Shown one piece after another: positions 1,393 to 44,959 of a stretch of DNA of 64,000 bases. Both the position numbers and the translations under genes were made by a program. Position 1 is the stretch's first letter. The number at the start of each line of letters is the position of its first letter. Source of the DNA: Liolophura sinensis (lineage: Eukaryota > Mollusca > Polyplacophora > Chitonida > Chitonidae); contig NC_088295.1 in the NCBI RefSeq assembly GCF_032854445.1, positions 22,183,385 to 22,247,384 of the forward strand, written 5' to 3'. A model generated the notes under the pieces. The model worked only from the letters and a program-made list of their open reading frames with translations. It was not told the origin of the DNA and did not search any database.

Positions 1393-1500
1393 GAACTGTT
1401 AACAAGGGGTAGACAACAAAAGCTTATCACCATGGCTGATGTTGAAATGACTGAGACAGTTGATGATGTGGCCAAAGTGAGTGATCCTGTGGAGAATCGG
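1393..1500 (+). CDS. Gene A first coding exon with 5'UTR part
   Basis: Acceptor-like TGTGTTTCAG ends at 1392 and donor GTGAGC starts at 1501. The first 39 nt are untranslated. Translation starts at 1432 (MADVEMTETVDDVAKV...), giving 23 codons with phase 0 at the donor. Because the exon opens with an acceptor, the promoter and at least one noncoding exon should lie upstream, perhaps before this window. Confidence 0.75.
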
Positions 1501-4500
1501 GTGAGCAGTTAGTTGCAGTTCATGGTGATGGCATTTCACTTTCGTTAGCTGTGGGTGTGGGTATACTTTTGTCCCCGCCATTCTTTATTCATGGATTAAA
1601 ATTAATTAAATACACATTAACAGTGTTTCTGCTGATCCTAAGTTTTGCTGGATGTGCAAACAGGCAACCTGATTAGCCCCTTCAAACTTCAGTTGGTTCC
1701 TTTTTTTTTTTTTTTGTTTCTTCACATTACCAGCATATTTTTAAAAAATGCACCACAGAACCAACCACTGCACTGAAGACACCACTGATATGGTCAACTG
1801 CTCAGTTTACAAGAAGCCCCAGTGTAAGGTATTTCCAGTACATCTTCTTCATGAACATGCTTTGAAGATGTACACCTATTTAAAGGGGCATACTGCCAAC
1901 GTCCAAAAAAATTGTGCTGTTATTTTAGATGTCATTTACCTAAAGTTTAGACTTCTCCTGTTGCTGAATTTAGAAAGCATGATTGTTTTTTTTTGTCCGT
2001 TAACTCCCCTTGTTGTCTAGACAACGGGAGATGTTCATTGAACTTTCAATGTCAGACATGGTATTTTGTTTGTAACTTTTGTTCGTACCGTGTAAATTCA
2101 GTACTACCATACAGTTGGTTGGGAATTACGAATACTTCATGAAACATTATTGATATAAAGGAATATTGTATTTGGTTTACTAGACTTATAGTTCACTTGT
2201 AGTCCATCGTATTGTTTATATGTGAGATCCACGGGTGAACGTTGCATTTTGGGAATCTTTGTGCTACCTCATTTGCATGTTATCTTGTCCTGTGACGAAT
2301 TTCTCCCTTATAGATTCCCTCTTAATTGACATTTTTTGGAAAATATAGGCTGCGGAGGTTTAGCTAGGAGTCAAATGCAGCTCATTTTTAGCTTGGCTTA
2401 CGAAATAAGGAGAGGTATTGTGAGAAGGGAATCAGCTGCAGTGGCGGTGGCCAGTTTGGTTAAAGGTTTTGGCCAATCATAGGGTTGCACTGGCCACCCA
2501 TAGTACACAGATAGCCAATCATCAGTATCAATTTACAAGACCAAGGAAGTCTTTCACCTCAGCACATTTTACTCAGCTATTCACAGGGTTGCAGTTGCCT
2601 GCAATAGTACATGGACTGCCAAATGCAGTACGCGATTTGCATATCAAAGATGTCTGTGGTAAATTTGGGCACTAACTCTCCACAGTACCACCACATTGAT
2701 TTACAACTCCATAACATATGAAGTCACTTTATCAATAAAAAAAAGAAATACAAGAATGAATGCTGATTTCAAGGTATCATGAATCAATTTAAATAAACGC
2801 ACTCTTGTTTCTCTTCTTTTTTGCTTTCCCCTCTTCCGTCTGGCTGCTCTGCAATCGTTGCATATACGATAAAGTCATAATTGTGACAGTATAATGATTT
2901 TGTTCCTTCTTGTTGATTCCATGGCAAAATTGTAGCAGTATATAATTAGCGGATAATATCTGTGTATGACAGTGTCAATCATTCTACTTTCTTTTTGGGG
3001 TTTAGAGGTTAATATTTGAGCGTATCACATGACTTGAGCATTATGCAGTTTTACAAACTGCTCAATCAGGCAAGCTATCAGCACTCTCTGAATGCCTGGT
3101 TGTATTTAGCTGAGCCACCTCAAAAATTCTGATTTTCTTAGAGTGCTATGTCCCTTTAATTCTTAGATTGTTAATCTATTTTTCCCCAAAGTTTTCAGGG
3201 TTTAAATCAGGGCAGTTTGTAAGCCTGTGGTTCCAGAGTAAGATTTTATGTTCGAGTCATTTTCAAATTCATATAGCTCAACTTGGCTAATTTCTGTACA
3301 TTTAGTCACATGGTAAAGTTTTATGTTGGGCCAACTAGTCTTACAGTTTTAACTACTCCTCACTCTTAATAAACATGCTGTGAAAATGCATCTTTGAATA
3401 TGAAGTAATCACTGCTGGCAAAAAGTGTCAGGTTGGCCTTGTTTCCTTTTTGCATGGCCAACGCATTAGAATCAAATGTTGTGATCATCAGATGGTTTCT
3501 TTGTATGGAAGTGTCTTATTTAATGAAACACTCTCTTATTATAAGGTAAACCAGAAAGGTCTTTGTCTCAAAGCTTTAAATTTGTGCATATTATGTTGGG
3601 TGAGCTGAAGGTGGAATAAAATGAAAAGTGTTTAGCTAGGATTTCCCCTCCGTACAAATATGCACTCATGCATGGGACATTTTCAGCTTATGATCTGTTC
3701 TCTAAGGGTAACTTGAAACTACTCATTGGCAAATGATTGCTCACTACGGCAATCTGTGGATGTGACCTCGAGGAAATCATTTGTTTGGTACATTTTTAAT
3801 GGTCAGACCAGGCGGTGAAACCAAGAATAATGTTACAAAGCCTTTGTATCAAGTGCTAATCATTTTAAGCAACATACCCTGTCTGAAACTAAGTTTTCAT
3901 CAGTTTTCCACTATTTGGTGTTATTGTGTATATGTTTTTCAGCATTTTATGTGTAATATTATTTGTTTGTATTGGTTTTCAGGATGAACAGGCAGAGCGT
4001 TTGGTTGAAGAGATTATAGGAAATGATGTACCAGGTAAGACTCTGCATGCATTTCATTTAAAGGTGTGATTCGGCAAGCTCCAAATGTGAAAAGTGACCA
4101 GATCTTCCCAAAGTTTGGAGATAGGGATAGATTTGGCCAGGTTGATGTCTTAGTGCCTTTGATTTGTTTATTTAATTGAAGAATTAAATCAAGACTCAAG
4201 AATATTTCATTTTTACAACAGCGACTAGAATTATGGTGGGAGGGAATCGGTACTTTTGAAACACCCAATTCTGACAATATTAACATGGAAGATAAAAATT
4301 GAAAATGAGGCACCCTGATTACCAATTCTGGCTAAATCTATGGCCAGTGATAACATACATATATTACTCCCAAGACACGTACAGGAGTTTACTATTGTAG
4401 GTTTACACTTCGTCAGTCAATCAGTTTTCCAGACTTTTGTTAATATGGTGTATTATATTTATTTATTTCATTGGTGTTTTATGCCATACTCAAGAATATT

Positions 4501-7500
4501 TCACTTATGCAACGTCAGCCAGCTTTATGTTGGAAGTTGGGTTACTATATTGAATTGAGATTTGGTACATGGCTTCGCTATGGCAAGTGACAGAGCCAAG
4601 TTTGAGTTAGATGTTGTTTTCTCAAGTATCTACAAAATTAGGGCTATTCTATCTTGTTCTGGTTCATAATTCTGAATTGTCACATGTCTTCACCAAGAGG
4701 AGTTGCAGATCAGGTTTTGAACGAATTTGTTAATTTTCTACTAAATTATGCCCTATCTCTGAACTTTAACATGGCTATTATTCTCGAAGGGGTATGTATT
4801 GTGAAAACGATGCCTCCAGAATACTTGTTTTATCGGATTTCCACAGATGTATGATGTTGTTTTCATTCACTGTATCACTATTCTTCCACATAATCCTGAG
4901 CTTATTTTAACAAAATAAATTCGAATTTGTGTCTAAAGTTAAGTGAAAATGCTTATCGAGTCCACTTCTTAATTTATTACATTACATTACGGACTTGCGA
5001 TGAACTAAGTTTTATCCCAGCTAGTTTGAATTACATGTTGTGATATACCCTTTATCTATGCACCCCCCCCCCCCCCCCACCACACACACACACACACAAA
5101 AAAAAGAAGTGTGCAACCAGGTTCATAACTAATTTATATATACCTTGTATTGGCAGTTAGCTGCTTATTTTAGTCTCATACATTTGTTCAGGTTCCTGAA
5201 TTGAAAGAATCAGATGAAATAGACATGCATCTTGATTTTTCTGATTTCAAATCTGACAGATCAAGAAAATAAATACTTCCTATGTAGGTAATAGTGTTTA
5301 TTATGCGATCAGATTCTACCTCCACCACTGAAGTAAAAGTATCGGAGGAGATGGAGCAAGACAACGGAAATGGAACGGATGAAAAGGAGGATAAAACTGA
5401 GAAAGGTGATGGGGGTGAGGAAAAAGATGGTGATGAGGAGGAAGGAGATAGTGATGCAGAGAAAGGAGATGATGGTAATTCAGGAGATGAGCAGCCAGAC
5501 GGAACAGAGGGGAAAGCCAAAAAGAAGAGAAACAAGAGTGCGTTTATTTAAATTGATTCATGATACCTTGAAATCAGCATTCGTTTTTTTTTTGTTTTTT
5601 TTTTATTGATAAATTGATGGTTGTTCAACACCATGCTTATAATTTAAGCTCGCATGGAGATAAATTTTATAGGTGGAGATAATCCACCTACCTTTGACAA
5701 GTTAACGACAACTTTCCCACCTGCATGTATGATTTATAGACTTTCACACCATATTTATTGAAGACAGACGAGACTGTGCAAATGGCCACAAGTTATTTCA
5801 TCTTATTTAGAAATTCTCTCTCCATGAAAATGGTGTTCACAATTATTATACATGTTAACATCCTTAACTTTCTGAATTACAGGGAAAATTTAACATTGAC
5901 ACAATGAGAAATTAGTGATTCTAAACATTTGTGAGAAACTTTCTTCAGTATATTAATAAAGTGAAAAACCACAAACCTGGATTAGTGGAAGAGTAGGTGT
6001 AGGTTTTGTTGATTGTGTAGCTAAAGTTTTTTAAGGATGTTCAACACAGTTTATCTTTGATCTCGGTGCTACATATAGGTCTGCTCTACATGTGATTCTT
6101 CAGACGGATTGCAGAGATATTTGTATTGTTTCATGCAGTGGGATTATGACAATACCAAGTATTGATCAAATAGAAAATTTCAAGCCACTTGAAGCTTGCT
6201 CATGTGCATTGATATATTTTTCAGATGCTCATGTTATCTATGTGTATCCTGTGAAATTGAAGGACTTGGTCCAGCCAAAGCTCAGCGACTTTCTGGCCAC
6301 CTGTTTTTTCTACAGCATACATTTTGTTGAATGCTTTCAGAAAGGAAAAATGGGGTATGTTATCAGAAAGTACTAAATATTCTTACATACAATTTTATTT
6401 GAAATGTAGTATTTGAAGTACTACCTGAGGGGCCTCCATGGCTCTCAGTTGGTTAGCGCGCTAATGACCCAGGAGTCTCTCACCAATGCAGTCGCTGTGA
6501 GCTCAAGTCCAGCTCATGCTGGCTTCGTCTCTGGCCATACCTGGGGAGGTCTGCCAGCAACCTACGGATGGTTGTGGGTTTCCCCCGGGCTCTGCCCGGT
6601 TTCCACCCACCATAATGCTAGCTGTCGTCGTATAAGTGAAATATTCTTGAGTACGGCGTAAAAATACGAATCAAATAAATAAATAAGTACTACCTGACAA
6701 GGTAGGATATCACAGTAGAAGTGGTGCTTGATATATGTCAGACTGAGGATCTAAATACATGTATGTCAGTCAGAAATGTTTGACAGTCTATAGTGCCTAC
6801 AGTGCATGTTGCACTTAGCAAGTCAGTTTTAATTTTAGAATAGAAAACCATGCATATCTCTGTATGTACCCACAGCTGCATTCACCTGGTGACCTTGCTG
6901 TATATGTAAATGGTGAAATCAAGAAATGATATATAGGTGTACCACATAAAGACCTAATAATTCAGTGTTCATATTATCTCTACATCATGACACACACAAA
7001 AAAAATGGAAATAGAGCACTAAAGTATAAAAGTTTTTGTTCTGCACACCTACATGTAATGTGACAGGTTCATTGATGTCGATTTCCTATGTACCGTAAGG
7101 CAAAACTTCAATAAATAAATATTTTAGTAATTTATGACCTTCAAGTGTATCCATATTGAATATTTTTTCGTTTTACCTCCCATCTATATTTTTAAGAGTA
7201 ACCTAGGACAGACAGACTTGTGACCTACTTTATTAATTATGATAAGTGTTCAACATTTCTTGCGGTCAAAATTAGCCATTTTTTTTTAGATTTATTAGTC
7301 TTAAGAAATCATAAAAGTTAAACAGTATATTTGTGTTTGTTCCAATGCAATATGCAAAGGATTTATGTAGAAAAATCTATCGGGGGGCCTATCGAATGAC
7401 CCAGTAGTCTCCCACCAATGCGGTAGCTGTATATTCTTGAGTACAGCATAAAACACCAATCCAATAAATAAATAAATAAATTTTAAATTGTCTCTGAAAT

Positions 7501-10500
7501 ACATGTATATATAAAACAAGTTTCAATTGATACTACTCTTGCTAGCTTTGTTAGTCCACAAATGCTATTACCTTTGACATGTAGAGCAGATGCTTCATGT
7601 TTCCAATCGGTGTCACAGTGGTCAACTCATGACACAGACTTCCCCATTGTAGTAGAAGTGTCAGTAACAATATCTTCAATAACCCTTACATTAAATGATA
7701 TATTGAGGACGGTGATGTAGGTTGAATCGACCCTTTACCTTGTTTTCGTCTGTTACTGTGAGTGAGCAGGATTTGCTATCTGCAGTCAATCAATGAAGCC
7801 AGCATGCTCAACATTCAGAAGCACCGAGTGTAAAGTCAAGAATAATCAAGGGATATGTTGGTAGTGTTGACCCCAGAAACATCTTTCTGTGTCTGGCTTA
7901 GGTGTTTTAATTGAGTTTTTTTCCCAGAAGGAATGAATATTTTGTGTTACATGCTTCTTTCTCTGTTGTCAGAGTGCTTGAAGTGAGGTTTCAGGGAGAC
8001 AAACCCCCAAATCTGGAAGAGTTACAGACTCTCTTGAACAACTTTAAGGTGGAAAGTGGTCAGTGTCCTACCCTACGACCATGGACCCTTGCGGATGCCA
8101 AAAAAAGTAATACATGTACTTCTACTCCATATATTGCCATACACCGCGAACCGTAGAAGTTTTATGAAAATGATGTCAAAAGCTACTTTATTTGAAATAA
8201 CCTTACGAAGTTGGACAAGGACAAGAATTCCACTAGGGGTGACTGCTTTATTTTCATTTTATCTCCCTGTTCTTTAGTATTTGAATAGGTGTTTTGTCTT
8301 CATGTTATATCATTGAACAGATGTTGAAATTACTTTTGTGGTCCATTTTTCAGATAAATTGGCAGCCTGGAAAGAGGAAAATGAAGCCCCCACTCCTGAA
8401 GGTAGGCATTGCTTTGTTGACACTTCTGGAATGTTTTGAACTAACACATCCAGATGCAAATCTGTCTGGATGGACTTTGAACCAAACAGATGATGAAATG
8501 AACATCTGATAAAACAAATCCATAAATGTAACATGGTTCTATCCTTAATTCATATTTTGAATCAGGCTGTGTGGCACAGTTAAGATTTTAACATGTACAC
8601 ATTTTGTTTATCTAATTATTGAAGGGACCACCAGAAGTTTTACACTAATTATACAACCAATATTGGTTGATTTACTTTGTTGCAGCTTTCCAAGAGTACA
8701 ATATATCCTGTATAATTGAAGGGATTTTTTATAGTGTGTCTTGAAAGTCTTGTCAGGTGTCCAGTATACAGAGAAAGTGTTCCCTGGTAATTCATGATAT
8801 CTGTGCTGATAGAACCCAGCCAGGCATCTACCAGACCCTTCATGAGAACTTGCCTCTAAGCAAGGGAAATGTCAGGCGGGTTGCTGTCAAATGGGTTTGT
8901 GTCCCGAAGGGCTCGGGTATAACCTCCTTCCTGTTTTACAGGTGATCAGGAGGAAGCTACAGTGTATATTGAAAACCTTCCTCCAGTTGCCAGGCCGGAA
9001 ATGCTGAAATTCCTCTACCCAAGAGCTACCCAAGTTGAGATCCCCACTGATACATCAGGAGAGTCCCTGGGGTAATTATACTGTGCAGGCTGCACAAGGA
9101 GACTAACACTCACTGTAAGAGTGGTGCTCTGGGCTCCTTTTACCAAATTCTTTCTCTAGTTGTTAGAGGATACTGGTTTGCCTGCATAGTTACCTAACAT
9201 GAAAGGGAGAGAACTCTATCTCCTGTGTTCAGGTTCTGATGTAAACGGGAAATACTTGGGCAGGGTGCTGAATAATACTTGGTCTCATTCTTATCTAACT
9301 ATCACAGTCATGGTTTATATATAAGCAGTTTTTCATCCAATATCAGTGTGTTCATTTTGAAGCAGGTGACATAAATTTATGTCAGTGATGTTTACATTTA
9401 TCCATAACCAGTTGTTTAAGGTTTGATGTTTTGTTCAGGAAAGTTGTTCTGGTTGTAGTCACGCGCTGCTGAAGTTTGCCACCACTGAAGAAGCTAAAGC
9501 TGTTGTGAAGAATGCTGCCATTTACAACCCCAAGATAGGGAAGAGGTACCTGGCTGTGAAGTTTATGGATGCAGAAGGACAAATTCATGGTGGGTAGAAA
9601 TTAGGGTCTTTTTGCAACAGTTTTGGCAATTTTACTCGTCGTTTAATAGCCATTTGATACGTGGACTTCTCAGGTTGTCATGCTTTCAGTGATAATTGTA
9701 TCGGTTTAATAGGCATACAAGGAAGAGAAGCTTACATGCAGGTTTTGCTCATTAAGTATCATTTATCAGGTTGTTTTGGTGGATTCCAGAGGACTGATTA
9801 TTGTTGGAGACTGGTACTGTTCTGACTTCTTCATCACCATCTCCTCTATCTTTGATGCTTTGTTTTGCACTGGTAACAAGTCAGATGTCTAGTATAACCC
9901 CTGTTTGATTTATTTCAGAGGAACCATTGTTCAAGGGATTTGATTTGGAGGCAGAAGGTTTGTATTTGGAAGATATGTAATATGTAAATCGGGTGGGCAT
10001 AAAATAATAAGCCATACTTTGACATTCAATATCTCCGAAACCCTCTTACGTCAGCTTCTAAAAATTTACAATCTCAGAAAACATTTTGTCCTAAATATAT
10101 AGACCAAATTTCAATTTCGTCCTTTAAGATTTCTGTTCACGGAACCAAAATCAAAATAGAGTCAATAACGTATGTTCAAAGACATTTCAAAGTGATGCTC
10201 TACCTTGTTTTACTTGAAAAGGTGATCAATTGGTCCACCATCTTCTTGGTAGACGGTGCGCAAACGTTTTTTTCCGTGAACTGATTGGGACCCGAATCTC
10301 CTTAAGAGTAATTTTTTTTCCAGCAGTCCTTGATGCGTGTCACACAGGTGCAGCGCATGCTCTACTCATGACACCTGACAGGTGATGCAATGTGGGTCAC
10401 TGGAACCTGCGTTTTTGAGGCTATGTTTTCATTTAACCCTGTGTACAGACTACTCAAGCTGTGACCTTTTAAATTGGTCAGTATAGTAACAAAATCATGC

Positions 10501-13500
10501 CATTTGAATGTCTAAAGTTTGAAAAGGTTTGAACAAAAGATAATGGAGCAATGCAGCATCAGAGTACGGCCTATTTTTTATGCCCACCGTATATATAGGT
10601 ATAATATTTTTATTGAAACAAATTGCCTGTAGTAGTGAAGGCATTAAAAGTGAATTATCTGTTTGGAGTAACTTAGATCAAGAGTGATTTTTGCAATATA
10701 TCTGTCAATGGCTCATCTCTGGTCAATTTCTTTATCAGTAATTTTGTCTGCAGTGGTGTATGTGAAATAATTTAACATCACTAGCTCTTCAGTGCTCTTT
10801 GTTGTTGGAGATGTGGAATTATGCACAGGTGGCTAGTGTGGCAGTTATAGTTCATGGTCAGTATTTAAAATGTCTTATGTCAGCGTATAACATACCATTG
10901 GATTGTAAACTGCAACACACCTGGCAAGGCTGTCAGTGGGAAATAATGATTGCATCAATTTCAAATTTATCTGAAAATCTATTAAATAAATCCTCAATTC
11001 TTCAACCAGCCATTTCAAAAGCATTACTAGCCAAATGTAGACTGTGGCTGAATGGCATTATAGGTAACTGTTTTGTAATAGACTATACTTATGTTGTATT
11101 TGTGCAGTGTTATGTCATTTGTGTAACAATTTTTTTCCTTTCCTCCTATCAGAAAGGAAGAATAAGCATAGGAGATATGAAACCCAGGAAAGTTATGACG
11201 ATGGATGGAGGGATCGTAAGAAGAAGAGCAGGCCCCCAAAACACATGAGGAAACTCTTGGCTGCTCAAAAGGAAAAAGAAGCTGAAAGTGGCAAAAGTGA
11301 GGGAAATGAAAAAGACAAAGAGGGTGAAGCAGGTTACGAAGACAGTGCTGCAGCCATGGAGGAGGAGGAGGAAGAGGAAAACCAGGGGTACTGGGGACCT
11401 GCAGGTGGAGGCTGGGGAAATGAGGAGGAAATGCAGGACTACAGGAACAGTCGTCAAAATCGTAGAAATGACCGACCATGGAGGAGAGATCGAGACATGC
11501 CAGACTGGCACTCGCACCAACCTGACCGTCGGCGAGGTCGGCCGTTTGAGCGGGACTTTGGTTGGCAGCCACCTCGAGGCTTTGGTCGGGGAAGGCGAGG
11601 CCGAGACCATCGCTTTGACCCTTGGAATAGCTATGGGGAGGAGTATGAAGGGCCACCGCCACCTCATTTCCGAGGCATGCGCGGTGGATTCCGACCAAGA
11701 CCTCCACCAATGGATTACCAGGGAGGTTACGGAGGGTATGGCCCAGATGATGGCACATACGACCAATATGGAGATCAAGGTATAACTGCAAATCTCTCTT
11801 CTGTACATTGTAATTTTGTTGAATCAGACTTCCAAATCCTTCAGCAACGTACTACGTAGTATTTATTTTCACATTAAATGTCCCTGTTGCAATCAGATTC
11901 TGGTAAAGATTTTTTGAAGTCAACCTGTTGTTTTTAATATTTATGTACAAGTAAGTATTCATTTGTGTGGGATTGTTTCAGGTTATTGGCTTGGACCTGG
12001 GGACGGCTTTCAGCGTGTGAGTTATCTTACCCGTACATTTTCAGTATGTGCATTCTGTATACCGGTAATTTATTCTTGGAAATGAACTACATTGAACCCA
12101 TTGCAAATCATATCATGTATCTTTTGCCTTTGACACATGTATACCTATAGGATATATATCATTTTATGCACAAATTGTTAGAGAACAGTATGGGCCAAAG
12201 TGATGTAAAAGTCCTGTATTTCATGTTCTATTTTCTAACTTCCAGGGTCCAGCTAACTGGGGCAATGAGCCTGCTGGGTAAGTGTTTTATTATTATTATC
12301 TTTTCATTATATAAATGTTGTCAGTATGGCTGCCAGCCTAGTGCCAGAATCATTTTGGTATATGTGGTCTACATACTGTCTATCAAAGAGAAGAAAACTT
12401 ATTGTGTCAATTCCTTTGAATGTCTTTATCTCTAGTTTCTTTTATAATACCAAGCAAGTGAATACATGAATTTCAGTCGAAAAATGTGGTATGAATTTGA
12501 AAATGGACATATTGTGGGGTGAAAATAAATTGCACATATTTTTACACCTCTGTTGTTCATAATTTTAACATGACACTGCAATAAAACCAGTAAACTCCTT
12601 TTGAATTTGCATTGTAGTATTGTCTAACATTAATCTTCTTTCAACAGACCACCACCACCACCACAACAAAAGCCTGAAAACCCACAGCTGGATAAACTTA
12701 AGGGAGAGTTGATGTAAGCATCAATGTGTGGTTAATTCTCATATATTGTACCCCAAAGTTGATCATAAGGCAACTTTAATTAGCATGATGGCTTTAATGC
12801 TCAGTTGTAATCTTCTAGCTTGCCCTCTGGGCTCCTGTTGATTTTTTGTACATCCACACAACCTGCCTAAATTCTTGAAACAACTGGAAAAATGTCCAAA
12901 TTCAGAATTTAAGGTCCATGTGTAATATGCTTTGATGTGTCCATATCACCATGTAGGGAAAGTGTGGAAGTACCTGGATATCAAGTTTTCGATGACATCT
13001 GTCCACATTGTCTAAACTGTCAAAAAGTATTGTTCTATTGTGAGTTCTAGTTATACCATCATCTCACTGCCTCATCTACAGCTTAAAGTGCGTAGGTCCA
13101 AAGCAGTTGCTATGAGTTCCAAGTCCAGCTCATGCCACCATAATGCTGGTCAGTATCGTATATTAGAGTGAAATATTCTTGTACGGCCTGAAAATCAAAA
13201 AAATTCAACATATATACTGTATGTATGTGCGAGTTGTTTAGTGAAGAGCAGTAGCATCGGGATTACAGTTTTATCCTCCCAAATTGTATTGTGTACTTAC
13301 CTAAGGGAATCCAACTCCTGCATAACATAAACACCAAAAGAAGTGAACTAATTGTTATGCTTGTAAACTGAGATACCTAATTACATATGTAATTCTTTTT
13401 ACAGGGATCAGCTGGGTAAGTTGGCCTCTGGGGATATGACCGACCCAGATACTCTGTCTCGTCTCGCTGAGAAGGTAAGGGAAGTACATACTGGAGATAA

Positions 13501-18651: not shown

Positions 18652-18661
18652 ACTTGCATGA

Positions 18662-33900: not shown

Positions 33901-36900
33901 TTCATGTACATCAACATAGATTAAAGGATAAATGTCCCGATTTAACTCCTGGCCCAAATTATAAAGATTATAACCTGTTTAAGCAGTGTATTACTGGAAA
34001 GGCTTCTGAGAAATGTAATGATGACTTTAAATCCATCAAAAACAATAGCTCTACTGCCCTAACTGATCTCCAGCATGCCCCCCTTGGATGGCTCAGAGGC
34101 TGACGTCGTAGGATGCCAACCCAAGTCTAGCTGGCCTGGGAATTTGTGTCAAAACGATGTCGTGATGGATAGTGGACGGCGCTGACGTTCCGATTTATGA
34201 CACTGAGATCTATAGCCATACTTCAGATTCCGAGTTTTAGGATGTTGAATTTGATCTTAAATTGTTCAGGCATTTCCGACAGCACTGAAAATACGGACTA
34301 GTTAGCTATAGCTTTATCATGTGTTACACTGTACCTGTGGTATGTTTATCTTAGGATTTAATGTTTGTTTAGTATTCTTTCTTTCTATCTGTTTCACAAT
34401 AAATATCATTCTGTCCCACAAGGTATTCTAAATTCATACCCATAGGCAATGACAATTACCGGTACATGTTATTGTCAGCATTCTGATCAGCCTATGCATA
34501 AAGGTGCAAATAGTAGTGTACAGAGATATGTTATCTATCAGTTTTCATTTCGGCAAGTAGTATTTCACAACCACTGTGTGCAGGTGCCATTGTGGTCATC
34601 TTTTTAGTCCAGCTGTATTTGTCTCATAGCTGTAAAATGGTGTGAGCAGGTATGGCTACTTTTGGAGGGTCCAAAATCTTCCGTCTTGTGCTGTAAATCC
34701 ATGCCTTCATGATGGCCAAATCGTCTGGGAACTTGTAAAAAACTCCAAGGTTCTTCAACGACGTGGATTTCACATCTGTATGCAGAACAACAAACCATTT
34801 CATGGCGTATTTGATATACCTGTTGTCACTCTTGGAGCTAATTGCTGCAAAGCCCTGACAGCTTGTAAAGGTTGGACTTGTATGATGGAGTCAGCAGAGA
34901 TTACCCAGTGTTGGTGAAAAACTGCATAAAACCAGCCTCAATATCTAGTGACTTCAAGTGCCATATTACTCAGATTATTGTACCCCTTTTCAGTACTTTT
35001 TTGCACTCAATTTATGCAGAGGAGTATCTGAATTGAATAGGTTATTACTTGTTACATAAATAATACAGTTATGTGTCTTATTGTTAGAAAGTGAATGTTA
35101 TGAAGGAGTGTTTTTATAGAAAAACTTCAAAACCTTACCTTTAATTTGTTGTCAAAATAAGTGTAATATCTGTACAAACTTAAAATACCATGTTGTATGT
35201 ATACATTGTGTTGGTCTTGTCAGTGCTTTGGCTGGAACTTATTTCCCTGAGCCAGTGTGTACTTTATGACAGGTTGCAGACTTTTCTAATTTTGGTGCCC
35301 ATTTATTCACAACACGACTGTATTTGACTGGTTGTTACTTACTACATGGGTGAAGATATAACTACAATGCCTGTCTGATTGATTTATTACTTGTACTATT
35401 TGACTGATGTTCTTCCGTCTCTGACTGGTTAATTACCCTGCCTGTCTGACTTGTTTGTTGCTCAGACTGACTGGTTGGTTTATTGCCCTGACAGTCTGGC
35501 TGGTTCGTTGCCTTGACTTTGACTGGTTCTTGGTTATAGGGTATGCATGTTGGAGTACCCCACACAGGAAGAGGCGGAGGAGATAGTACAGTACAGTGAA
35601 AAGTTCCAGGCCCGTATCGGCAACAGTAACCTAAAACTGACAATACTTGGCCAGACTAAGATACCGTCAGGCAATGGTAGGTCTACCTTGTTTAAATCTT
35701 GGAAGTGAAAATACATTTTAATATTATGTCATAGTATTATTGTACTATAATCAAAATTGCAACAATACAAACTGTTTTCCTATTTTAGATTCTATTAATG
35801 GCACTTCAAGAATATTTCCAGTCTTTTTCAAGATTTGTTTAAAGCCTACACCAGAATAGGAAATCGTTTATATTTAGTTTAGTTTTATAGTTTAATTTTT
35901 ATAAATGGGTACACTTTAGTGTCCTTGTATATCTTTGCGACAGAGATGACACCTGTTGAGCCAGCAGTACAGGCGAAGTCTGACAAGGGGTATCCACATA
36001 GTGATACAGGGAGCACTAGAACTAAAACACTCACTGAGTTCAAATCTGCTCAAGTTAAACAAACAGTGAAGCCAAAGTATAACAAGAACGATTCTGTGAA
36101 GGCTGACAGCTCAACCAAATTAGTCCCTAAAAAAGTTGATACTAAGGTGACTAAAGTATCAGAAAAGGAGAAAAATGATCCAAAGAAAGTCAGCAAGAGT
36201 ACTGATTCAGGAAAGAGGACTTCCGTGAAAGAAAGTGGGAAGGACAAGAAGGCTCACAGAAAAGAGAAACTGTCAGATAGTTCAAAGAAGAGCAACAGTA
36301 AAGATGACTTCAATAGGGGGAACAACAAAACTAGGAGGGACTCAAAACAAAGTGGCTCAACCTCTAGAAGGTCAGAGCGGTGGAGCCCAGGTCGATCATC
36401 CAGAAGTCACAGGTCAACTTCTAGCTCTCGAAAATCCCAGGAGTCAAGGTCTTCAGATAAGAAGAAAGTCAGTAGCTCGAGTGAAAAGGGCAGGAGTTCC
36501 AGTAAAAGTGTAGACAAGCCAAAGCACAAGGACACCAAGCCACAGACTGATGGTAAAAAAACAGACTTGAATGTAACTGGTAAGAAAGTTTCTGAGAATC
36601 AAGGTCGACAGAAAACTAATGCGACATCTGGAGAAAAGAAAAAAAGTGGTACTATCATTCCGGTTCAGCTAGGCAGAACAGGTAATGCTGCTAAACGTCC
36701 CATGGAGACCAGTGTCAATATCAACAGGTCTGACAAGCGCAGTAGGTTTGATGTGCCCACTACAGGTCCTGGGCCAGTGGGGCCATACCCCATCGGGATG
36801 AACCCAGGTTCAGGTGGACCCATGATGAGAGGGAACTTCCCACAGCAACAGCCTCATGTGGTGAGACCCCCTGTTCCACCCAACATGATGAATCTGGGGA

Positions 36901-39900
36901 TGGGAAGGATGCCCAGCCAGAACTTTTCACCACAGAACATGATGATGGGACAGTCCCAGCCCATGACCCAATCTGTGTCCCAACCGATGCCCCAACCTGT
37001 GTCCCAACCAATGCCCCAACCTGTGTCCCAACCTGGAATGAACACCAATATGGGTAAGCTGGCAAGGGTCATACTAGGTCTGTTGAGATGGATGGGTGTT
37101 GATTATAGTAATAGTAAAGTATCGTTCTGTATGTTAACACTGCTTGTTAGGCCTTGGTGACAGTAGATTGTAAGAGGTTGACACTGGTCAGGTGGTCATT
37201 TCCACTGTCTAATGTTTGTTGATGACCACTTGTCTTCCACCAGTATGGTGTGTATATCTGTGTTTGTCAGGTGTAAAAGTTTGCCAGTAATAACTTGCCA
37301 AACTCTGGTTTCCTCCTCCCAGATTGACAGCCATCAATAAGTGGAAACAACAATGAAATAAATAAATTGAATACTGTACTGGTACATTGATAATTTTATA
37401 CTGAATCAGAACATCACAACATTACATGGAAATCTCCCTGTTGACATGCTGTAAATATGTCCAGTGACTTTGTGATCTTCATACTGGTAAGGTAAACAGA
37501 ATTAGTGTGTTTGCATACAGTGAACGTTTATATCATGTGAAAACTATGCTCCCTTAGTCGAAGTATTCTTGAATGCTTTCCCTTTTTAAGCATATTTTCA
37601 TGTATGAGAGAGTCAGCAAACATCATTTGTACACATGCTCTTATTGAGTACATTAGGTAATTGCATAAGATTTTTAACCCTGCTCTTTTTGTATGAAATA
37701 TTATTGATCATACATAAAGCGGGTAACATTAGAGTGGTTAGTGTAAGAATGAAGAGAATAATATAGAAGGGAGCATTCAGTGCACACTTGCAATCACCAA
37801 AGCAGTGCCATCCTTAGATGACCTCTCAACAGTCCTCAGTCTTTTAGGTGATATTTAACAGTCAGTGTATACTTAATATCTTATAGCGACAGTTATTAAC
37901 GAAACAGGAAAGCTTGTCTGCATACCCTTACATTGCCCTCATGTCATTGTTTGCAGGTCCTTCTGGGGTCCCCTGTACAGGAGCACCAGGCCTGGACCAG
38001 CCCATGATGGGACCAATGTACATGGGACCACGGCAGATGAACCGACAACAACAGGTAAAGAAAAGCCATCATGTATGCGACACAAATTTCTTACACATCC
38101 TGATGAAACATTGATGCGATTAGCTGATTGACTGTGCCCAGACTTTTTTGATCTTGGTTTGATTTCGATAATGATTTACTATTAGGTGGTACCATTCATT
38201 TTTTGACTATTTCAAAAGCTCTTCTTGTTTGTAGGATTACGGCATTGTTTATGTGGGCAAGCTCTTGTTGCTCACAGGGCTATGATATGGTCTATCTGAT
38301 TCAACTTTTGTTTCTCGCAGGGTTATGGCATTGTTTATCTGGGCCAACTTTTGTTTCTTGCAGGGTTATAGTATTGTCTATCTGAATCAACCCTTGTTGT
38401 TTGCAGGGTTATGGTATTGTTTATCTGGGCCAACTCTTGTTTCTTGCAGGGTTATAGTATTGTCTATCTGAATCAACCCTTGTTGTTTGCAGGGTTATGG
38501 TATTGTCTATATAGGCTAACTCTTGTTGTTTACAGGGTCATGGTACTGTCTGTATGGGTCAACTGTTGTTGTTGGCAGGGTTTGGGTATTGTCTATCTGG
38601 GCCAACTCTTGTTTCTTGCAGGGTTTGGGTATTGTCTGTTTTGGGCCAATTCGTGTATTTGCATTATTATGGTATTATCTATTTGAACCAACTTTTACTG
38701 TTTGCAGGGTTATGTTATGGACAACAGAAATCCATCAAACTGGCCCCCTAACAGAAATTCTGGTAATATGGCCAACAACTGGTAAGTTTTATGTGGTTAA
38801 TGAATGCCATTAATGCCATTAATGGTATTGAATGTTCCCAGGGTTCTTATTATTGGGTTGGGGAGATTATAGGTGTGTCAGTGTGTCACAAAAGTTTTCT
38901 GGACTTTCTGAGAATGGTTTATCATATGGAATTGGTATGTGCCTTGACCCTAACAAGTTACAGATCAAGTTTTGTTTTACATGCATTTTGTTCATTTCTT
39001 TGGCTGTTTTTGTCCAGTTTGAACTTTAACAGTTATCCAGACATTTTTTTTTCTCAAGCAATTTTCTTGTAACAAATTGAAAGTTGATCCATGGTTTCAC
39101 AAGTACAAGTTACAGATCAAGTACAATTTTCAGGCTGTTGGTTCTGTTTTTCTACAGTATTATGGATGCTTTGTCTTGTTTCATTTAATTTTTAAGAAAA
39201 AGCAGTTATATTTTTCTTAAGACAAATAATAATGAACAGATATAATGAAAACCATCAACACATGCTAACACCAGTTGCACTTGTACATGAAACATTTCGC
39301 CCCTAGAGTATATGCAGTCTGATCTATCACAAAATATGAAGTAAGGCAATGGTGTTGTGTCTAATGTTTCTTGTTGAAAAAATTATATACTGGTATTGAA
39401 ACTTGACAATCTGTGAAGTGGCAACTTATCCGTGTTCTTAAAAATGGTTTTGAAGAAACTTACCCCATACAATTTTTCTGTCAATATGTCCTTCGAGTGT
39501 TGTTTGGGCTGTAGGGACAAGTCTGGTGGAGGTCGGGGAGAGTCTCCTGAAGAAATCCATAACCTGAGGGGGGAGCTGTTGTAAGTACACACTGATACAG
39601 TCATAGCAAGCTGCCAGTCACACTGCTAGGCTTTGTCCAGCTTCAAAGCTGGGACAGGTATGTGTCATATTCACCCTGCACTCTTGTTAGTCTCAAATCT
39701 CGAAAACATTCTCAATCATGATCAGAATGTTTGCAAATTGTTAAAGTGTTCAATTTCTGTAATGTTAACCCAATGAGAAAAGGGTGGAGCATGTGATTTT
39801 AATAGTAGAGCAGTACCAGTGATCACAAATTTAACTAAAGTGTATTTTTAATTATTTTTAGAAAACAGCTGCAAGTTCTTGAAACAGGGAATGTGTCTGA

Positions 39901-42900
39901 TCCCTCAGACTTGTCTTACATCGCTCAAAAACTGAAACAGGTGCAACAGTCTCGTAACCAAGGTGGGTTCACAGGCCCACAGCAGGGGGGCTTTCCGCGG
40001 GGTCCCCAGGGTAACCACCAGCAGCCCCAGACTGGACCGCAGCAGAATGTGCAGGGTAGCTTCGAGAATGCACCAAACATAAATCAGCAAGGAAATTTTC
40101 CCAGCCAGCCAAACATGCAACAACAACAGGCTGTATACAGGGACTGGCCCAGTCAGTCAAGTGGAGCTGCGCCTCAAGGGGATCCCAGCAACCAGTATGG
40201 TTATCAGAGCTACAGCAACAACAACCTGCAGTCCAGCATGCCTTACGAAGGGAAGCAGATGCATGGAGATAACAGTGGAATGCGCCACCCTGGGGGAATG
40301 GATAGTTACAACATATCAAGAGGTTGGTGTAGCTGCTCAGGGGAAATCGTTAATGGACATGTAACTTATGGAGTTAATTCCTGTAATAAGTGTCTGTTAC
40401 GGCCATGCAATAACAGTCTTAGCCTTAAGCAAGAAAGGATTAATATTTTATCTGTTTTCATGGAATGACTTGCTGGTGGACTGATGTTACCTGAATCTCA
40501 TATCCAGGTTGATGGTACAGTACAGCTGGATCCTAACCATCAACCCTATGCCCATTGTGGTCAGATGGTCCGTGTATCATACGCCTACTATACATCGACC
40601 CTGGCCAGGTTAAACAAACCTTCATCCTCCTCTTACCATCCGCATAGGTTGGCACACGGTCCGCCAACAGTCCGTGCATGGTGGCACTATAGTCAGTGTA
40701 TCATTTTACGACTCATTTATTTTTGTGAGTTTGATCGACATCGGACGCACTCTATAGGCCCTGTAAAATTAGCACGATTGAGTTTCAAGCCGTAAATGAC
40801 AAACTTGGACATGTACTATATAAATTGTTAAAATAATTCTAAAGTCTAATGCGAAATGCTCTATAAATTTTTGGAACTTTATTACCGATTTTGTACGTAA
40901 CATTTGCTCAGACGAGGCTGATATTTTGTGAAAGGTAATTATTTGGGCTATTCTAAAGTAACAGCAAAAACTGCATTGGATTTATGCTAATAGATTTTTT
41001 TTAATGGTACCAAAAATCTCTGGTTTTGATTTTTACTTTCTTTGGTGTAATTTCATAATTTATACATTGATAGTTAGAGGATTATCTCAAAATATGTAAT
41101 ACATTTTACAGCTTGCTAGGTTTAGGATACATGTATATATAGGCCTGGGGCCTATGTTGCACATGTACATGTATATAAAGGCAACATATGATTGCGTTGG
41201 TCGCGTTCAAACTTAGAATAAACAGTATAAGAATTTTGTGCTTACAAAACTAATAAACAATAGGATCGACAAGTGTAAAATACAATTTAGGAGCTCAAGA
41301 TTAAAAGGAAAAACATTAACATGCGTACCTTTATACATGTTAGTGGTGTGAATTTTTGTAGGCCTTTTGTGATGCATCGATATAACTCATTATATATATT
41401 ATACATATACATTTTCAGTATAGGTTTTTTACGCAAACTGACACACATCACACATGCCAAAGTCAGCTTATTCCTGCGTAATATTGTATCTGTGTGAAAC
41501 TGTGGTAAATTTACTAACTGAACTTGAGCCCATTCCCAAATGCTGAAACACATTCAGGGTTGTCATGTACAGCGCGGACTTCAGAGTAAGGAATGTGTTG
41601 CATATACATTTAGTTGTCGGCATATAATTCTGCCATAAATGCCTCTAAGTAGGCTTGTTATTTAATAATTAGTAAAGTAATTTATGTTCTATATAAGATA
41701 TTGTGTGCTCGAGATGCCCGGTAGAAACTTGAATCCCCTGTACTCAAGAGAATATTGTATATGGGTGGCGGAGCAAAACATTAGAGGTGCAAATAGTAAG
41801 CAGTTAAAACTCGAATTTTGTGCGAAATTTGTGTGCAAGTAAATAAGCTGCAGGTCATCACGGTGTTCATAAGAGGGATGACGGTTTACAGGAAATTGGG
41901 CCCGTATTTAACGTTAAAACATTTGAGTTAGTGAGTGAGTGCTTGGGGTTTAACGTCGTACTCAACAATTTTTCAGTCATATGACGACAAAGGAATCCTT
42001 AGGGTGCATGTACATGTAATGTGCCTCCTTGTTGCAGGACGGATTTCCACCGCTCTTTAATTTAGTGCTGCTTCACTGAGATGACTTACCGAAGGCGGTA
42101 AGCTGCCCCACCCGAGCCATTATACTGATACGGGTCAACCAGTCGTTGCACTATCCCCTTCATGCTGAATGCCAAGCGAGGAAGTTACAGCTTCCTCTTT
42201 TAAAGTCTTAGGTGTGACTCGATCAAGGATTGATCCTGGATCTACCGGTCCCATAGCGGACACTCTACCAACTGTGTTAAAGCATTTGATGATCATGCCA
42301 TTTGATGGCCGAGATATGAAGGTACATGGTGGGAGTATTGTACGCTGACCATGGACCGATCATCAGTGTATCCTCTGGCAACAATGGGTCTAAGATTGAT
42401 GATTAAGATCCGGCTGTACTGTATTTTTGAATGTCCATACTAATTACATGTCATCGCTATACGTGGCTGGGTGAGTAGGACCACATTGGTTTTGACAACT
42501 ACCACTTTACCTGTGAGATCACATGTTAGATGAGATGCAGCTGGCAGGGCTCTGACCAGTTTGTCATTTATTGTATCATGTGCGGTAGATTCTTCAGCTC
42601 ACCAAAAAAAAAAAACATGTTTCAAAGAAATGCGAAAGTGCAAAATATTGCAGTGTGAAGCACAATTTCTTCAAGGATTGCATCACTGTGATAACTGTAG
42701 TCATATCAACACAATGACATGTTTGTTATTGTTTTTAAACTTGATGTACAAACCTTGATTTGTCACAGCCAAGATTATTTATGTTGTTAAAAAAAATCTT
42801 ATTAGAGAATGTTGTAGATATGGTGTAAAAAGTCCACTATATGAAGTTTGTCTTCCTAGCATGGTTTTTCCTTGGCCAAGATAGCATGTTATTGTTTTCA

Positions 42901-44959
42901 AATGTATTTAACTACATGTATATTCCTTTGAAGCTAGTCAGTCAAGTGATTTCTTTATTGTGTTATGTTTGTTTTTTACCCAGGGTCTGGAATGCCTGGG
43001 GGGATGCCACCATATAATTCAGACAGGGGTGTAGACAGAAGAGACATTTCTGTATCTCAGCTCAAAAAGTTAAAAACCATTTGTGTACAGAATCTACCAA
43101 AGCCCATCAATTACGTGCGTAACTACCAAATTTAATAGAATTTTCTGCAGGATTGTAGCATGTACACAGTTTACAATGCAATGCCACTTTGAATTAACCA
43201 TTGCCCAGTTTGCTGATTTGTGATTAAAGTAAGTCTTAGCCAATCTACAGTCACATGTGCTTTGTTAAACAATGTTACATGTTTGATACTTCATGTGTTT
43301 CAATACTTTAAATTCCTCACTGTTATTATTGTTCTTCCTCAAATTATTATTCTATTCAGAATTTACTTTTTGCCATTTTTCAAGAAAACTGCAAAGTAAA
43401 GCTATAATTTTCTATTAGGTAATGTTTATTACCTAACCCCTTGGGCTACACAGTTCTATATAAAACTTTACGGATCACTGACCTACTTTGCTGCCACATT
43501 GGAGATATATCTAAATCCTTTATGGACCTTCTTCTCCAGAACTGCTAATCTGAGTGGCTTGAAATTTAATATGCATGGGCACACCTATGGGGTTATAAAG
43601 TTTGTGTGTAATTTGTTTAAATTGGCTGAAAACTGTGAAAGTTCCCTGTAGGCTGATTATGTGACATGACAACCTATGTTTTAATGTTTAAACATGCCGT
43701 TCGATCATGTTAGATTTGGCTTTCTGAAGACAAAATTGCAGTTTAAACACAAAATTGTGTGTGTGTGTTTTTGTTTTTTTTTTTGATGTGATGTAACCGG
43801 AAGCCATTGATTCTATGAAGCTGACAATAACATGTGACAATAACACTTACCTCCATATGCTCTTCCTTTCACCTAAAAATTGTGGTGCTCTAATGATAAA
43901 ATTGGTACACATGGTCGTCCATAGTTAGAAAAATGATTTGTAGTGTTTAATACATATAGCAGTGTACTGATACTCAAAATTCATTTCTCTGCAGCAATTG
44001 CTAATATATATCAAGTTTTAACCTGATACTACAAGTTTTAGCATAGGAGTAGTTAAAGTGATGGTGGTGTTGTTGTAATCTTTGCTATATGTTAATCATG
44101 GAGTAGGAGAAACAGACTTTCATCAACTCCAAATGCCATCAAGCAGAGAACAGTTATAAAACTGTGTATCTTTAAATACCAGCACTACTGATACCAAAAC
44201 ATTGTTTTGCCCTGAAATTGATCTGTACTGAAGCAGATGCTGAAAGTCATTCATGAAGACTGTTGAAACTGTGAAACTGCAGGTAGTTCTGCTTAATACT
44301 AGCACTGTTTTCCGGTTACAACCAGCATTTGTATATTATGAAGCCCAAATGTTCACAGAAGCTGTGGGAAGGGGGTATAATCAGTCTGCCTCATTACATC
44401 CCTTATATAATGCATATTCAAGAATAGGAAGATGCTGTACCCCAATTGATTATTGTTTTCATTTGTATTTGTTTTTTCCAGATTGAAGTGAAAAAGTTTA
44501 TCCGTAAAGAAATGGTCTCACGGAATCTCTGTAATCCCAAAGGACTTGCCAGTGATCTATGTTCATGCATCAAAGAAAGGCTACTCCAGTATTGTGGTGG
44601 GTTGAGTTTGAAACATCATATTTGTGGATGGGAAGGGAGGACATTCATGTGGTCATCTCTGAAAAGATATATCTTCTTGATCAGTAATAAAATGCTCTAA
44701 TGAACCAAATGAATAAACAGTTACATCTTGCTATGTTAGCATAGTGGTTTCATCAAGTAACTGCTAAGTGCTGCCACTTACATGTTGTTTTTAGTATATG
44801 TGTAAGTTACCATAGCTTCTTATTCACATTTTCTTTCTTTTAGTTTGACACGGAGATACGGCCAATAACGCTTTACAGCTTGATGGAATCAACTTCCAAG
44901 GCCATATCCTAAATATCCGAAAAAATGTGGCTTTGATGTTTGACATTCACCTGTCATAA
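23827..44959 (+). CDS. Gene B: paralog of gene A; acidic, RRM, RS/Q-rich RNA-binding protein with disrupted C-terminal RRM
   Basis: Coding exons join(23827-24232, 24529-24944, 25440-25500, 25708-25755, 27770-27917, 28424-28575, 28810-28851, 31614-31743, 35540-35676, 35944-37053, 37957-38054, 38708-38781, 39515-39580, 39862-40322, 42984-43114, 44482-44596, last exon from 44844 or 44856). The first 15 exons make 1160 in-frame codons. Order: E/D-rich N-terminus (~1-275), degenerate RRM (~315-400), RRM (~427-510), K/S/RS-rich (~515-720), P/M/Q-rich (~760-940), helix motif (~957-990), Q-rich (~990-1110), U2AF65-like RRM (~1125 on). Read literally, the C-terminal RRM is lost to a frameshift at ~44545-44550 and stops at 44846-44848. 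An alternative acceptor at 44856 restores the last part, ending TAA 44957-44959. The ATG context is CAGCCATGG. No named family is recognised. Confidence 0.76.
25910..26100 (+). repeat. Dispersed repeat, copy 1
   Basis: It starts TACCCTAATTCCTCAACCTT and includes GGGCTTCACAAAAAGTATAA then TTTTATCAGTC. A second copy lies at 51892-52085 in the same orientation. The family is not recognised; the copy may extend beyond the shared part. Confidence 0.6.
26676..27019. repeat. Minisatellite, 43-bp unit, 8 copies
   Basis: CACTAATGATGCTG(T/C)ACTTT followed by CAAATGCACTTGACCTTCCTGCC repeats with starts at 26676, 26719, 26762, 26805, 26848, 26891, 26934 and 26977. Copies differ by only a few substitutions, which points to recent expansion or homogenisation. 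It lies in gene B intron 4. Confidence 0.92.
27770..28851 (+). CDS. Gene B exons 5-7: degenerate RRM-like domain and linker
   Basis: Exons 27770-27917, 28424-28575 and 28810-28851. They encode AKNLLNLQKAVIIYHVKPDD, KAVCFCVRFLGPKG, SLTFSRHLEARFSSQKEAKE and FKNGQKMKAFLLGPGGG, then DWLLNEWQRSISPAG. Entry and exit phases (1, 2, 1, 1) equal those of gene A exons 4-6, and the linker aligns with KLAAWKEENEAPTPEG there. The RRM-like fold is inferred from strand/helix order; RNP consensus residues are absent. Confidence 0.7.
28852..31613. other. Gene B intron 7 (2.8 kb) with unproven exon-like segments
   Basis: Segments with acceptor-like starts at about 30288 (AVDVPGRKDRIEAWREYV), 30832 (ENNEDIDLAAVKTLLER) and about 31429 (AAIEEQLAVVVSLKKGV) read sensibly for 17-30 codons in the entry phase but lack good donors or meet stops. 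They are not in the gene model, because gene A goes straight from the equivalent linker exon to the RRM exon. They could be alternative or decayed exons. Confidence 0.35.
31614..35676 (+). CDS. Gene B exons 8-9: RRM domain split by a 3.8-kb intron
   Basis: Exon 31614-31743 reads RCVFVSNVPSFAREEMLRAL then YPTAESVNLPLKPDGQTNG. Exon 35540-35676 reads VCMLEYPTQEEAEEIVQYSE then KFQARIGNSNLKLTILGQTK. RNP2-like CVFVSNV is good; the RNP1 strand is weak. The split falls at the same glycine and phase 2 as gene A 9071/9459. The intron holds a degenerate AGAAGAGACAGATGTA-type tandem repeat (about 33.1-33.8 kb) and no other supported exon. Confidence 0.8.
33130..33860. repeat. Degenerate GAAGAAGAG(A)CAGATGTA tandem repeat
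   Basis: Purine-rich units containing GAAGAAGA and CAGATGTA recur at roughly 27-36 bp spacing through most of this interval (for example GAAGAAGAGACAGATGTAGG around 33620-33660). Several overlapping ORFs on both strands arise only from the repeat. It lies inside gene B intron 8. Confidence 0.65.
35944..37053 (+). CDS. Gene B exon 10: K/S-rich, RS-like and P/M/Q-rich exon
   Basis: A 1110-nt exon. It begins EMTPVEPAVQAKSDKG, continues lysine/serine-rich (KVSKSTDSGKRTSVKESGKD), then a serine/arginine segment (RRSERWSPGRSSRSHRSTSS), a short basic stretch (KRPMETSVNINRSDKRSRF) and ends in P/M/Q sequence with tandem 24-bp units (QPMPQPVS, about 36960-37030). RS-type regions in splicing proteins are phosphorylated by SR kinases and direct nuclear speckle localisation; that is family knowledge. 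In gene A the corresponding exon is RGG-rich, so linker chemistry has diverged between the paralogs. Confidence 0.8.
37140..37365 (+). mobile_element. Diverged SINE copy (second family)
   Basis: GATGACCACTTGTCTTCCAC, CAGTATGGTGTGTAT, ACTTGCCAAACTCTGGTTTC and CTCCTCCCAGATTG, then a terminal AATGAAATAAATAAA, run parallel to the element at 46330-46655 (GAAGACCATTTGTCTTCCAC, AACTTGCCATAGG, CCAGTTTCCTCCATC). No clear duplication is visible. It begins about 90 nt after the donor of gene B exon 10. Confidence 0.5.
38192..38707. repeat. 43-bp minisatellite of splice-acceptor units before gene B exon 12
   Basis: The unit is GGTTATGGTATTGTCTATCT plus GGGCCAACTCTTGTTTCTTGCAG. AG|GG boundaries fall at 38235, 38278, 38321, 38364, 38407, 38450, 38493, 38536, 38579 and 38622. 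The position expected at 38665 is degenerate, and the next, 38708, is the genuine exon start (CAG|GGTTATG). Every unit thus ends in a pyrimidine tract plus CAG and opens with the first ~7-13 nt of the exon. Confidence 0.92.
38708..40322 (+). CDS. Gene B exons 12-14: N/Q-rich segment and conserved helix motif
   Basis: Exon 38708-38781 (GYVMDNRNPSNWPPNRNSGN) follows the 43-bp decoy-acceptor array. Exon 39515-39580 (DKSGGGRGESPEEIHNLRGELL) and exon 39862-40322 together form NLRGELLKQLQVLETGNVSD and PSDLSYIAQKLKQVQQ, the motif shared with gene A. A ~130-residue Q/N/G/P-rich region follows (QQNVQGSFENAPNINQQGNF, NQYGYQSYSNNNLQSSMPYE). Intron phases 2-2-1 match gene A exons 12-14. Confidence 0.76.
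41935..42285 (-). mobile_element. tRNA-headed SINE, third family, inverted
   Basis: On the minus strand the head reads CACAGTTGGTAGAGTGTCCG, followed by GGTAGATCCAGGATCAATCC, giving A-box and B-box-like blocks about 40 nt apart. The other end on the plus strand is GTGAGTGCTTGGGGTTTAAC and GTCGTACTCAACAATTTTTC, a sequence I associate with molluscan interspersed repeats (recollection, not searched). It lies in gene B intron 14. Confidence 0.6.
42984..44959 (+). pseudogene. Gene B C-terminal U2AF65-like RRM, frame-disrupted
   Basis: Exon 42984-43114 ends LKTICVQNLPKPINY. Exon 44482-44596 starts IEVKKFIRKEMVSRNLCNPK. One extra nucleotide near 44545-44550 moves the conserved strand (PVIYVHASKKGYSSIV) out of frame. 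In the last exon (from 44844) TTTGACACGGAG lacks one nucleotide relative to the expected frame, after which DTANNALQLDGINFQGHILN continues. Compared with gene A, the two shifts are +1 and -1. Either both are assembly errors, or the domain is decayed, or use of an acceptor ending at 44855 rejoins the frame. The LDGINFQGHILNIR ending is strikingly U2AF65-like. Confidence 0.6.

Follow-up and report, generated by a model that had tools for sequence, protein, structure and literature searches.

The present analysis concerns two neighbouring genes, here called A and B, on the forward strand of chromosome 1 (C1) of the chiton Liolophura sinensis, in which a nucleolin-like front half stands before a C-terminal RRM of the U2AF2 type. 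They lie in a stretch of 64,000 nucleotides (C1:22183385-22247384), referred to as the window, and their positions are counted from its first letter. The genome comprises 609 Mb in 632 contigs. According to passages of the assembly report (PMC11068029), the assembly (609.5 Mb, 632 scaffolds, PacBio HiFi at 14x) was published as Liolophura japonica, a species name since corrected to L. sinensis (PMC12441733). The analysis supports A and B as tandem paralogs that follow a common exon plan and whose order of domains occurs in no Pfam family. At least eight loci, all on the same chromosome, make up the family to which they belong.

Genes were read in the window up to about position 46,500, and the full window was scanned for Rfam families, tRNAs and tandem repeats; the Rfam and tRNA scans of the 64 kb found nothing. 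Gene models were built on GT/AG junctions and chosen to stay open. RRM2 denotes the second RRM, with RRM2a and RRM2b as its halves, R3 the C-terminal U2AF2-type RRM, and GEL a helix module.

Exon structure of genes A and B

Junction assembly gave gene A 16 exons and one frame of 963 amino acids with a single terminal stop. The acidic N-terminus is encoded by exon 1 (1432-1476, ATG start, donor phase 0), exon 2 (3983-4034, donor phase 1) and exon 3 (5313-5537, donor phase 1), which has KKKRNK at its end. A degenerate RRM-like region follows in exons 4 to 6. The first half of this RRM1 lies in exon 4 (6225-6354, donor phase 2, alignable to B 27793-27917) and the second in exon 5 (7973-8106, donor phase 1, with 8058 as another possible donor, also in phase 1); exon 6 (8321-8401) has donor phase 1. 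The nucleolin-like RRM2 is split between exon 7 (8942-9071, donor phase 2, of the GG/GTAA type) and exon 8 (9444-9589, donor phase 1, entered through the weak acceptor GGAAAG/TTG). Exon 9 (9919-9957) is an extra exon of 39 nucleotides (nt). It is followed by exon 10 (11153-11779, donor phase 1), an R/G/E-rich linker with 10 RG/GR pairs, and by exon 11 (12253-12277, NWGNEP, phase 1 to 2), for which an alternative phase-0 acceptor exists at 12246. The GEL module begins in exon 12 (12648-12713, phase 2 to 2) and is completed in exon 13 (13405-14318, phase 2 to 1), where its remainder (13406-13486) runs into a T/Q/S/G-rich linker. The U2AF65-like RRM occupies the last three exons: beta1 in exon 14 (14630-14688, phase 1 to 0), alpha1 to beta3 in exon 15 (15260-15367, 108 nt, phase 0 to 0), and the last part in exon 16 (15648-15758), which closes with KSLTG and TGA.

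Gene B follows A collinearly from exon 5 and keeps an open frame through exon 15, over about 870 amino acids. The acidic N-terminal stretch, joined in A over exons 1 to 3, is present in B as acidic open frames outside the joined model: a probable exon 1 (23827-24229, end approximate) and a probable E-rich exon (24530-24940, ends approximate). RRM1 is divided between exon 5 (27770-27917, donor phase 2) and exon 6 (28424-28575, phase 2 to 1), and exon 7 (30832-30945, phase 1 to 1) has weak splice sites. The two halves of the nucleolin-like RRM2 are exon 8 (31614-31743, phase 1 to 2) and exon 9 (35540-35676, phase 2 to 1). Exon 10 (35944-37053, phase 1 to 1) is a linker, K/S/RS-rich and then P/M/Q-rich; exon 11 (37957-38054) runs from phase 1 to 0 and exon 12 (38708-38781) from phase 0 to 2. 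The GEL module starts in exon 13 (39515-39580, phase 2 to 2) and ends in exon 14 (39862-40322, phase 2 to 1), which continues as a Q/G/S/N-rich linker. Exon 15 (42984-43114, phase 1 to 0) holds beta1 of the U2AF2-type RRM.

A 43-nt tandem array (38219-38718, 11.6 copies) reaches about 10 bases into B exon 12, whose acceptor lies within the final unit. The consensus unit of this array holds a stretch, TTGCAG followed by GGTTATGG, which resembles the exon 12 acceptor, so that, among many look-alikes, the genuine 3' splice site is apparently the final one. Other minisatellites of the window were found at 26675-27018 (period 43), 33496-33697 (29/58), 47158-47727 (59) and 58097-58759 (24).

In the present assembly the C-terminal RRM of B is broken. 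Exon 16 (44482-44596) measures 115 nt and the conserved frame switches within it: residues like those of A and U2AF2 stand first in frame 0 (EVKKFIRKEMVSRNLC, up to NLC) and thereafter in frame 1 (PKDLPVIYVHASKKGYSSIV). Continued into the last exon (44844-44959), B meets a TGA after one residue, and the conserved residues of this exon sit in another frame. An intact B was rejected on account of the two shifts of the conserved frame and of an exon 16 whose length is not divisible by three. B may be a decaying pseudogene, with A and some of the other members as the only working genes; the two frame changes needed in the tail and the early stop favour this, while the long open stretch of exons 5 to 15 and the persistence of conserved residues in the shifted frames speak against it. 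As HiFi coverage is only 14x, base errors in the tail are possible, and error and decay are indistinguishable there. We consider the decay of B possible, on the unlikely side of even.

That A and B are tandem paralogs, as the original prediction had it, is borne out by the collinear match of their exon translations, with RRM2 (8932-9072 against 31604-31744) at E 1.8e-10 and 43% identity and the GEL exon (13397-13486 against 39854-39943) at E 7e-5; identity between the two genes ranges from 26 to 43%. The donor phases claimed for B from exon 5, 2-1-1-2-1-1-0-2-2-1-0, were recovered. The string claimed for A contained an additional phase-0 exon which is not required, since 11779 joins 12253 in frame; the present model gives 2-1-1-2-1-(1)-1-2-2-1-0-0 from exon 4. 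Open phase 1-to-0 candidates for such an exon occur between 11779 and 12246 (among them 12045-12064 and 11982-12064), and none resembles B exon 11. The shared phase string holds for ten paired donors and fails at the eleventh pair, where A 15367 is in phase 0 and B 44596, as read, in phase 1. Agreement at ten of ten donors has a chance of at most 3^-10, a figure which overstates the case because the models were selected to stay open. The 39-nt exon of A, which has no counterpart in the B model, had been taken as the sole difference between the genes; B exon 37957-38054 is likewise without a recognised counterpart in A, and it seems that two exons, and not a single one, set the genes apart.

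The predicted divergence in linker chemistry was confirmed. In B, 35944-37053 is S/K-rich with 13 RS/SR pairs and 39862-40310 is Q/G/S/N-rich, and the linkers of A differ from these as described above; tyrosine, named in the prediction for A, is not among the six commonest residues of 13405-14318. The domain order holds as well, with the reservations that the degenerate first RRM of A and B is only a putative one, no match in the Pfam or PDB searches covering it, and that the C-terminal RRM of B is not intact. In keeping with the suggestion that no known family has this layout, the Pfam profile search gave one generic RRM_1 each in A and B, and no description of such a family was found in the open-access PMC literature among the matches listed. 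On complete A at E 0.1, Pfam reported only the C-terminal RRM (4e-4, 20.5 bits against a cut-off of 20.7).

The GEL motif is present in both genes, as claimed, and the module with its internal phase-2 intron was found in six of the eight family members (A, B, C, C2, D and E). AlphaFold placed two helices in the 35-residue GEL stretch (residues 2-7 and 14-28; mean predicted local distance difference test score 71, two sequences), weak support from which GEL may, with modest confidence, be described as a short two-helix module. A known family for the motif was sought with the six members and rejected, the best values (0.011 against Pfam, and 0.07 for the profile against PDB) being at chance level.

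Eight or more family loci on chromosome 1

What the original prediction had missed is that A and B are members of this larger family, that RRM2 is nearest to nucleolin, that the C-terminal RRM and RRM1 of U2AF2 have both introns in common, and that the B copy is broken. A genome search with RRM2 of A returned four more places on C1 beyond A and B; the same search with RRM2 of G gave 12 matches, all on C1, and added C2 and a weak match at 11.80 Mb. The family, counted by eight RRM2 exons, forms three groups. A and B (plus strand) make up the first, at 22.18-22.23 Mb. The second, at 23.44-23.53 Mb, contains C (minus; RRM2 23451242, GEL 23444614, last R3 exon 23441488), C2 (minus; RRM2 23475730, weak GEL 23464855), D (plus; RRM1, RRM2 and GEL at 23488358-23496039) and E (minus; RRM2 23524070 and 23516372, GEL 23509575). 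At 36.8 Mb lie F (36808988-36829283) and G (36843115-36873427), both on the plus strand.

A control search with RRM_1 (150 scored of 314 candidates) gave matches on C1 to C14 and two scaffolds, with 32 of the 150 on C1. Since the control matched 16 contigs, the restriction of the family to C1 is not an index effect, and clustering as an artefact of a one-contig index was ruled out. The same control search brought up two more tight groups of RRM_1 exons, at C3:12322769-12488171 and C1:36272906-36298813.

Family profiles were run across 18 fetched genome pieces and recovered seven exons which had not been used in building them: RRM2a (2e-9) and RRM2b (1.5e-7) of E, RRM2a of C2 (1.4e-8), the GEL exons of C (6e-8) and C2 (1.7e-4), and the last R3 exons of C (5e-5) and F (7e-4). 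A weak match of the RRM1 profile (0.034) on the R3 exon of C was dismissed as a cross-match. Intron positions are likewise kept across the family. The RRM2a donor is GG/GT in phase 2, in the beta2-beta3 loop, in 7/7 members (A, B, C, C2, D, F and G; that of E lies beyond the fetched edge), the RRM2b acceptor is plainly in phase 2 in 6/7 and in A only via the weak acceptor, and the GEL-exon acceptor is in phase 2 in 6/6. The U2AF2-type RRM with its phase-0 introns is clear in A and G, partial in C (last exon) and in F (middle and last exon), and broken in B.

Repeat-like open frames were seen near exons of D (L013:868-4623) and G (L011:2007-3272). In E, a 2.3-kb open frame (L014 reverse strand 4141-6453) carries a repeated charged segment of the DHRRDTPDQRRDTP type, and a second GEL-like stretch (L014 reverse strand 7991-8269) lies about 3.6 kb downstream.

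At locus G the U2AF2-type RRM is repeated seven times. The seven middle exons of R3 follow one another at 36849777, 36853574, 36858631, 36861744, 36866077, about 36869014 and 36872705; all are open and run from phase 0 to 0, six of them with 117 nt and the sixth in order with 117 or 120. Seven last R3 exons follow the middle exons; for two cassettes, the fifth and the seventh, a beta1 exon was found as well. An aromatic residue stands at both RNP1 places ([YF]QF) in all seven copies. From their order and phase, the seven RRMs probably belong to one transcript.

Nearest relatives of RRM2 and the C-terminal RRM

The RRM2 profile matched the nucleolin chain at 4e-28 summed over three RRMs and RBD3 alone at 1.8e-12; B by itself matched nucleolin at 2.9e-8. 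A query with human nucleolin picked up nucleolin-like RRM exons at C1:11.80-11.88 Mb. They have the phase-2 intron in common with family RRM2, so that this intron alone is not family-specific. The RRMs at 11.8 Mb have the phase-2 split instead of the U2AF2 RRM1 intron places. Their exons lie in C1:11797001-11801000, 11852001-11860000 and 11874001-11880000 (L032, L030 and L031, respectively) and may form a second expanded family.

The R3 profile, built from eight copies (that of A and seven of G), matched U2AF65 over a single stretch at 1.6e-14, the next single-stretch protein being nucleolin at 1.5e-9, and R3 of A alone matched U2AF65 at 1.7e-6. The chiton U2AF2 gene lies on the minus strand at C1:23543012 to about 23547657 (outer position calculated by way of the locus offset). 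Two introns, both in phase 0, divide its RRM1 after NIPFGVTE and after NFAFLE and enclose a middle exon of 117 nt, and the R3 introns of A and G stand at the same two phase-0 places; the middle exon has the same length in G and 108 nt in A. The nearest family exon found, RRM2a of E (23524070), is about 19 kb from 23543012 on the same strand. In a tree of 21 RRMs, R3 grouped with RRM1 of U2AF2 (84/83), R2 formed a clade (98/96), and R2 joined the nucleolin RRMs (90/88). With this moderate support the tree is consistent with both proposed origins. Most likely, the C-terminal RRM was copied from the exons of the nearby U2AF2 RRM1; that U2AF2 was the donor is suggested by its conservation.

Several results weigh against a joint origin from nucleolin-like and U2AF2 parts. 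Only 3 of the 18 inner branches of the tree are starred. With the RRM2 profile, Nop4 came to 2e-11, close to RBD3 alone, so that nucleolin is nearest by a small single-domain margin, and a PABP chain headed the R3 profile search by summing three RRMs. RRM2 of U2AF2 has its first intron at the same place as RRM1 and its second further on, and several RRM matches of the RRM_1 control end near the second place, irrespective of phase; neither intron place is therefore unique. Searched against the whole genome at E 1, R3 of A found only itself. The human U2AF65 query found U2AF2 and no family member among 40 genome matches, and the human nucleolin query none among 37; the likeness to U2AF2 and nucleolin is thus visible in this genome by profile and introns only. 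A U2AF2-type exon was not seen for C2, D or E within the fetched stretches, GEL was not matched at E 0.05 in the F/G region 36804001-36880000, and the full layout was traced only in A, in B with its broken tail, and piecemeal in C.

Some of these observations would suit a different history, in which an old lophotrochozoan or metazoan family was kept and multiplied in the chiton and the likeness of its tail to U2AF2 reflects deep RRM divergence instead of a neighbour copy. The long branch between R3 of A and RRM1 of U2AF2 (1.46), the failure of plain genome searches to link the two and the low identity of A and B all fit great age. The two introns at the U2AF2 RRM1 places and phases, the same 117-nt middle exon in G, and a family member within about 19 kb of U2AF2 argue against it, and we regard such an ancient origin as unlikely.

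Proposed origin, function and comparison with known proteins

The explanation to which we lean, with confidence little above an even balance, is that at least eight genes of chromosome 1 joined a nucleolin-like front to a copied U2AF2 RRM1 cassette, spread locally and encode nuclear RNA-binding proteins. A common ancestor would have joined the front (acidic N-terminus, degenerate RRM and nucleolin-type RRM) to the three-exon U2AF2 RRM1 cassette, with a low-complexity linker and the short two-helix GEL module between them. Local duplication would then have spread the family while the linkers diverged fast, and in member G the cassette would have been amplified to seven copies. The proteins are predicted to be nuclear and RNA-binding, with single-stranded RNA held by the nucleolin-type RRM and, in G, also by the U2AF2-type RRMs. 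The linkers, which combine RGG and T/Q/S/G-rich parts in A and are RS/K-rich in B, may set the nuclear compartment and the partners, and the GEL helices may bind a partner or self-associate.

As far as described in passages of PMC7408900, Y152 of U2AF65 RRM1 stacks on uracil and the substitutions G154S/V impair splicing. By alignment to U2AF65 made by eye, the residues at these two places are C and K in A, F and G in the fifth copy of G, and H and G in the seventh. With C and K at the Y152/G154 places the RRM of A is probably altered; having lost the main RNP2 aromatic, it would bind RNA weakly or bind protein. The U2AF2-type module would then bind RNA in G and, perhaps, protein in A.

A bolder proposal is that local copying of U2AF2 RRM1 made a chiton-lineage family of competitors or enhancers at the 3' splice site, in which G, with seven RRMs and their RNP1 aromatics kept, would read long uridine-rich tracts in a multivalent manner for which no known splicing factor offers a parallel; this we hold to be doubtful. 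In spite of its acidic N-terminus, nucleolin-type RRM and RG-rich stretch, A is very unlikely to be nothing more than the nucleolin of the chiton with a changed tail, since its C-terminus is a U2AF2-type RRM instead of an RGG tail and the query with human nucleolin missed A while picking up separate nucleolin-like exons at 11.8 Mb.

Should the copying from U2AF2 prove true, a single chromosome would display a domain lent out by a core splicing factor, together with the gene it came from, the genes that received it, the introns they have in common and the extreme amplification to seven cassettes. It would then be feasible to trace, stage by stage, how exon copying gave rise to an RNA-binding family, and to test the effect of that family on splicing. 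With linkers that change fast while the exon plan stays fixed, the genes are also a natural experiment on low-complexity domains.

Compared with nucleolin, the family shares the acidic N-terminus, an RRM2 nearest to RBD3 and, in A, an RG-rich stretch. It differs in that the RG/GR pairs of A are internal (exon 11153-11779) and are followed by GEL and the U2AF2-type RRM, with no C-terminal RGG tail, and in that the remaining nucleolin RRMs are unrecognisable. The FET proteins (FUS, EWS and TAF15) have low-complexity Q/S/G-rich and RG-rich segments next to an RRM, and a zinc finger. A resembles them in such segments beside an RRM; the RanBP2-type zinc finger is absent (the Pfam scan of A at E 0.1 gave RRM_1 only), and the RRMs are of other types and in another order. 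The likeness to U2AF65 lies in the RRM1 type of the C-terminal RRM of A and of the seven RRMs of G, in profile, introns and, in G, the length of the middle exon. Unlike U2AF65, A has no RRM2 or UHM after this RRM, its frame ending with KSLTG and a stop a few residues past it, and it carries C for Y152 and K for G154. Drosophila LS2 is a paralog derived from U2AF2 with a role of its own, and it retains the U2AF2 layout. In the chiton family, unlike in LS2, one RRM of the U2AF2 type sits on another protein.

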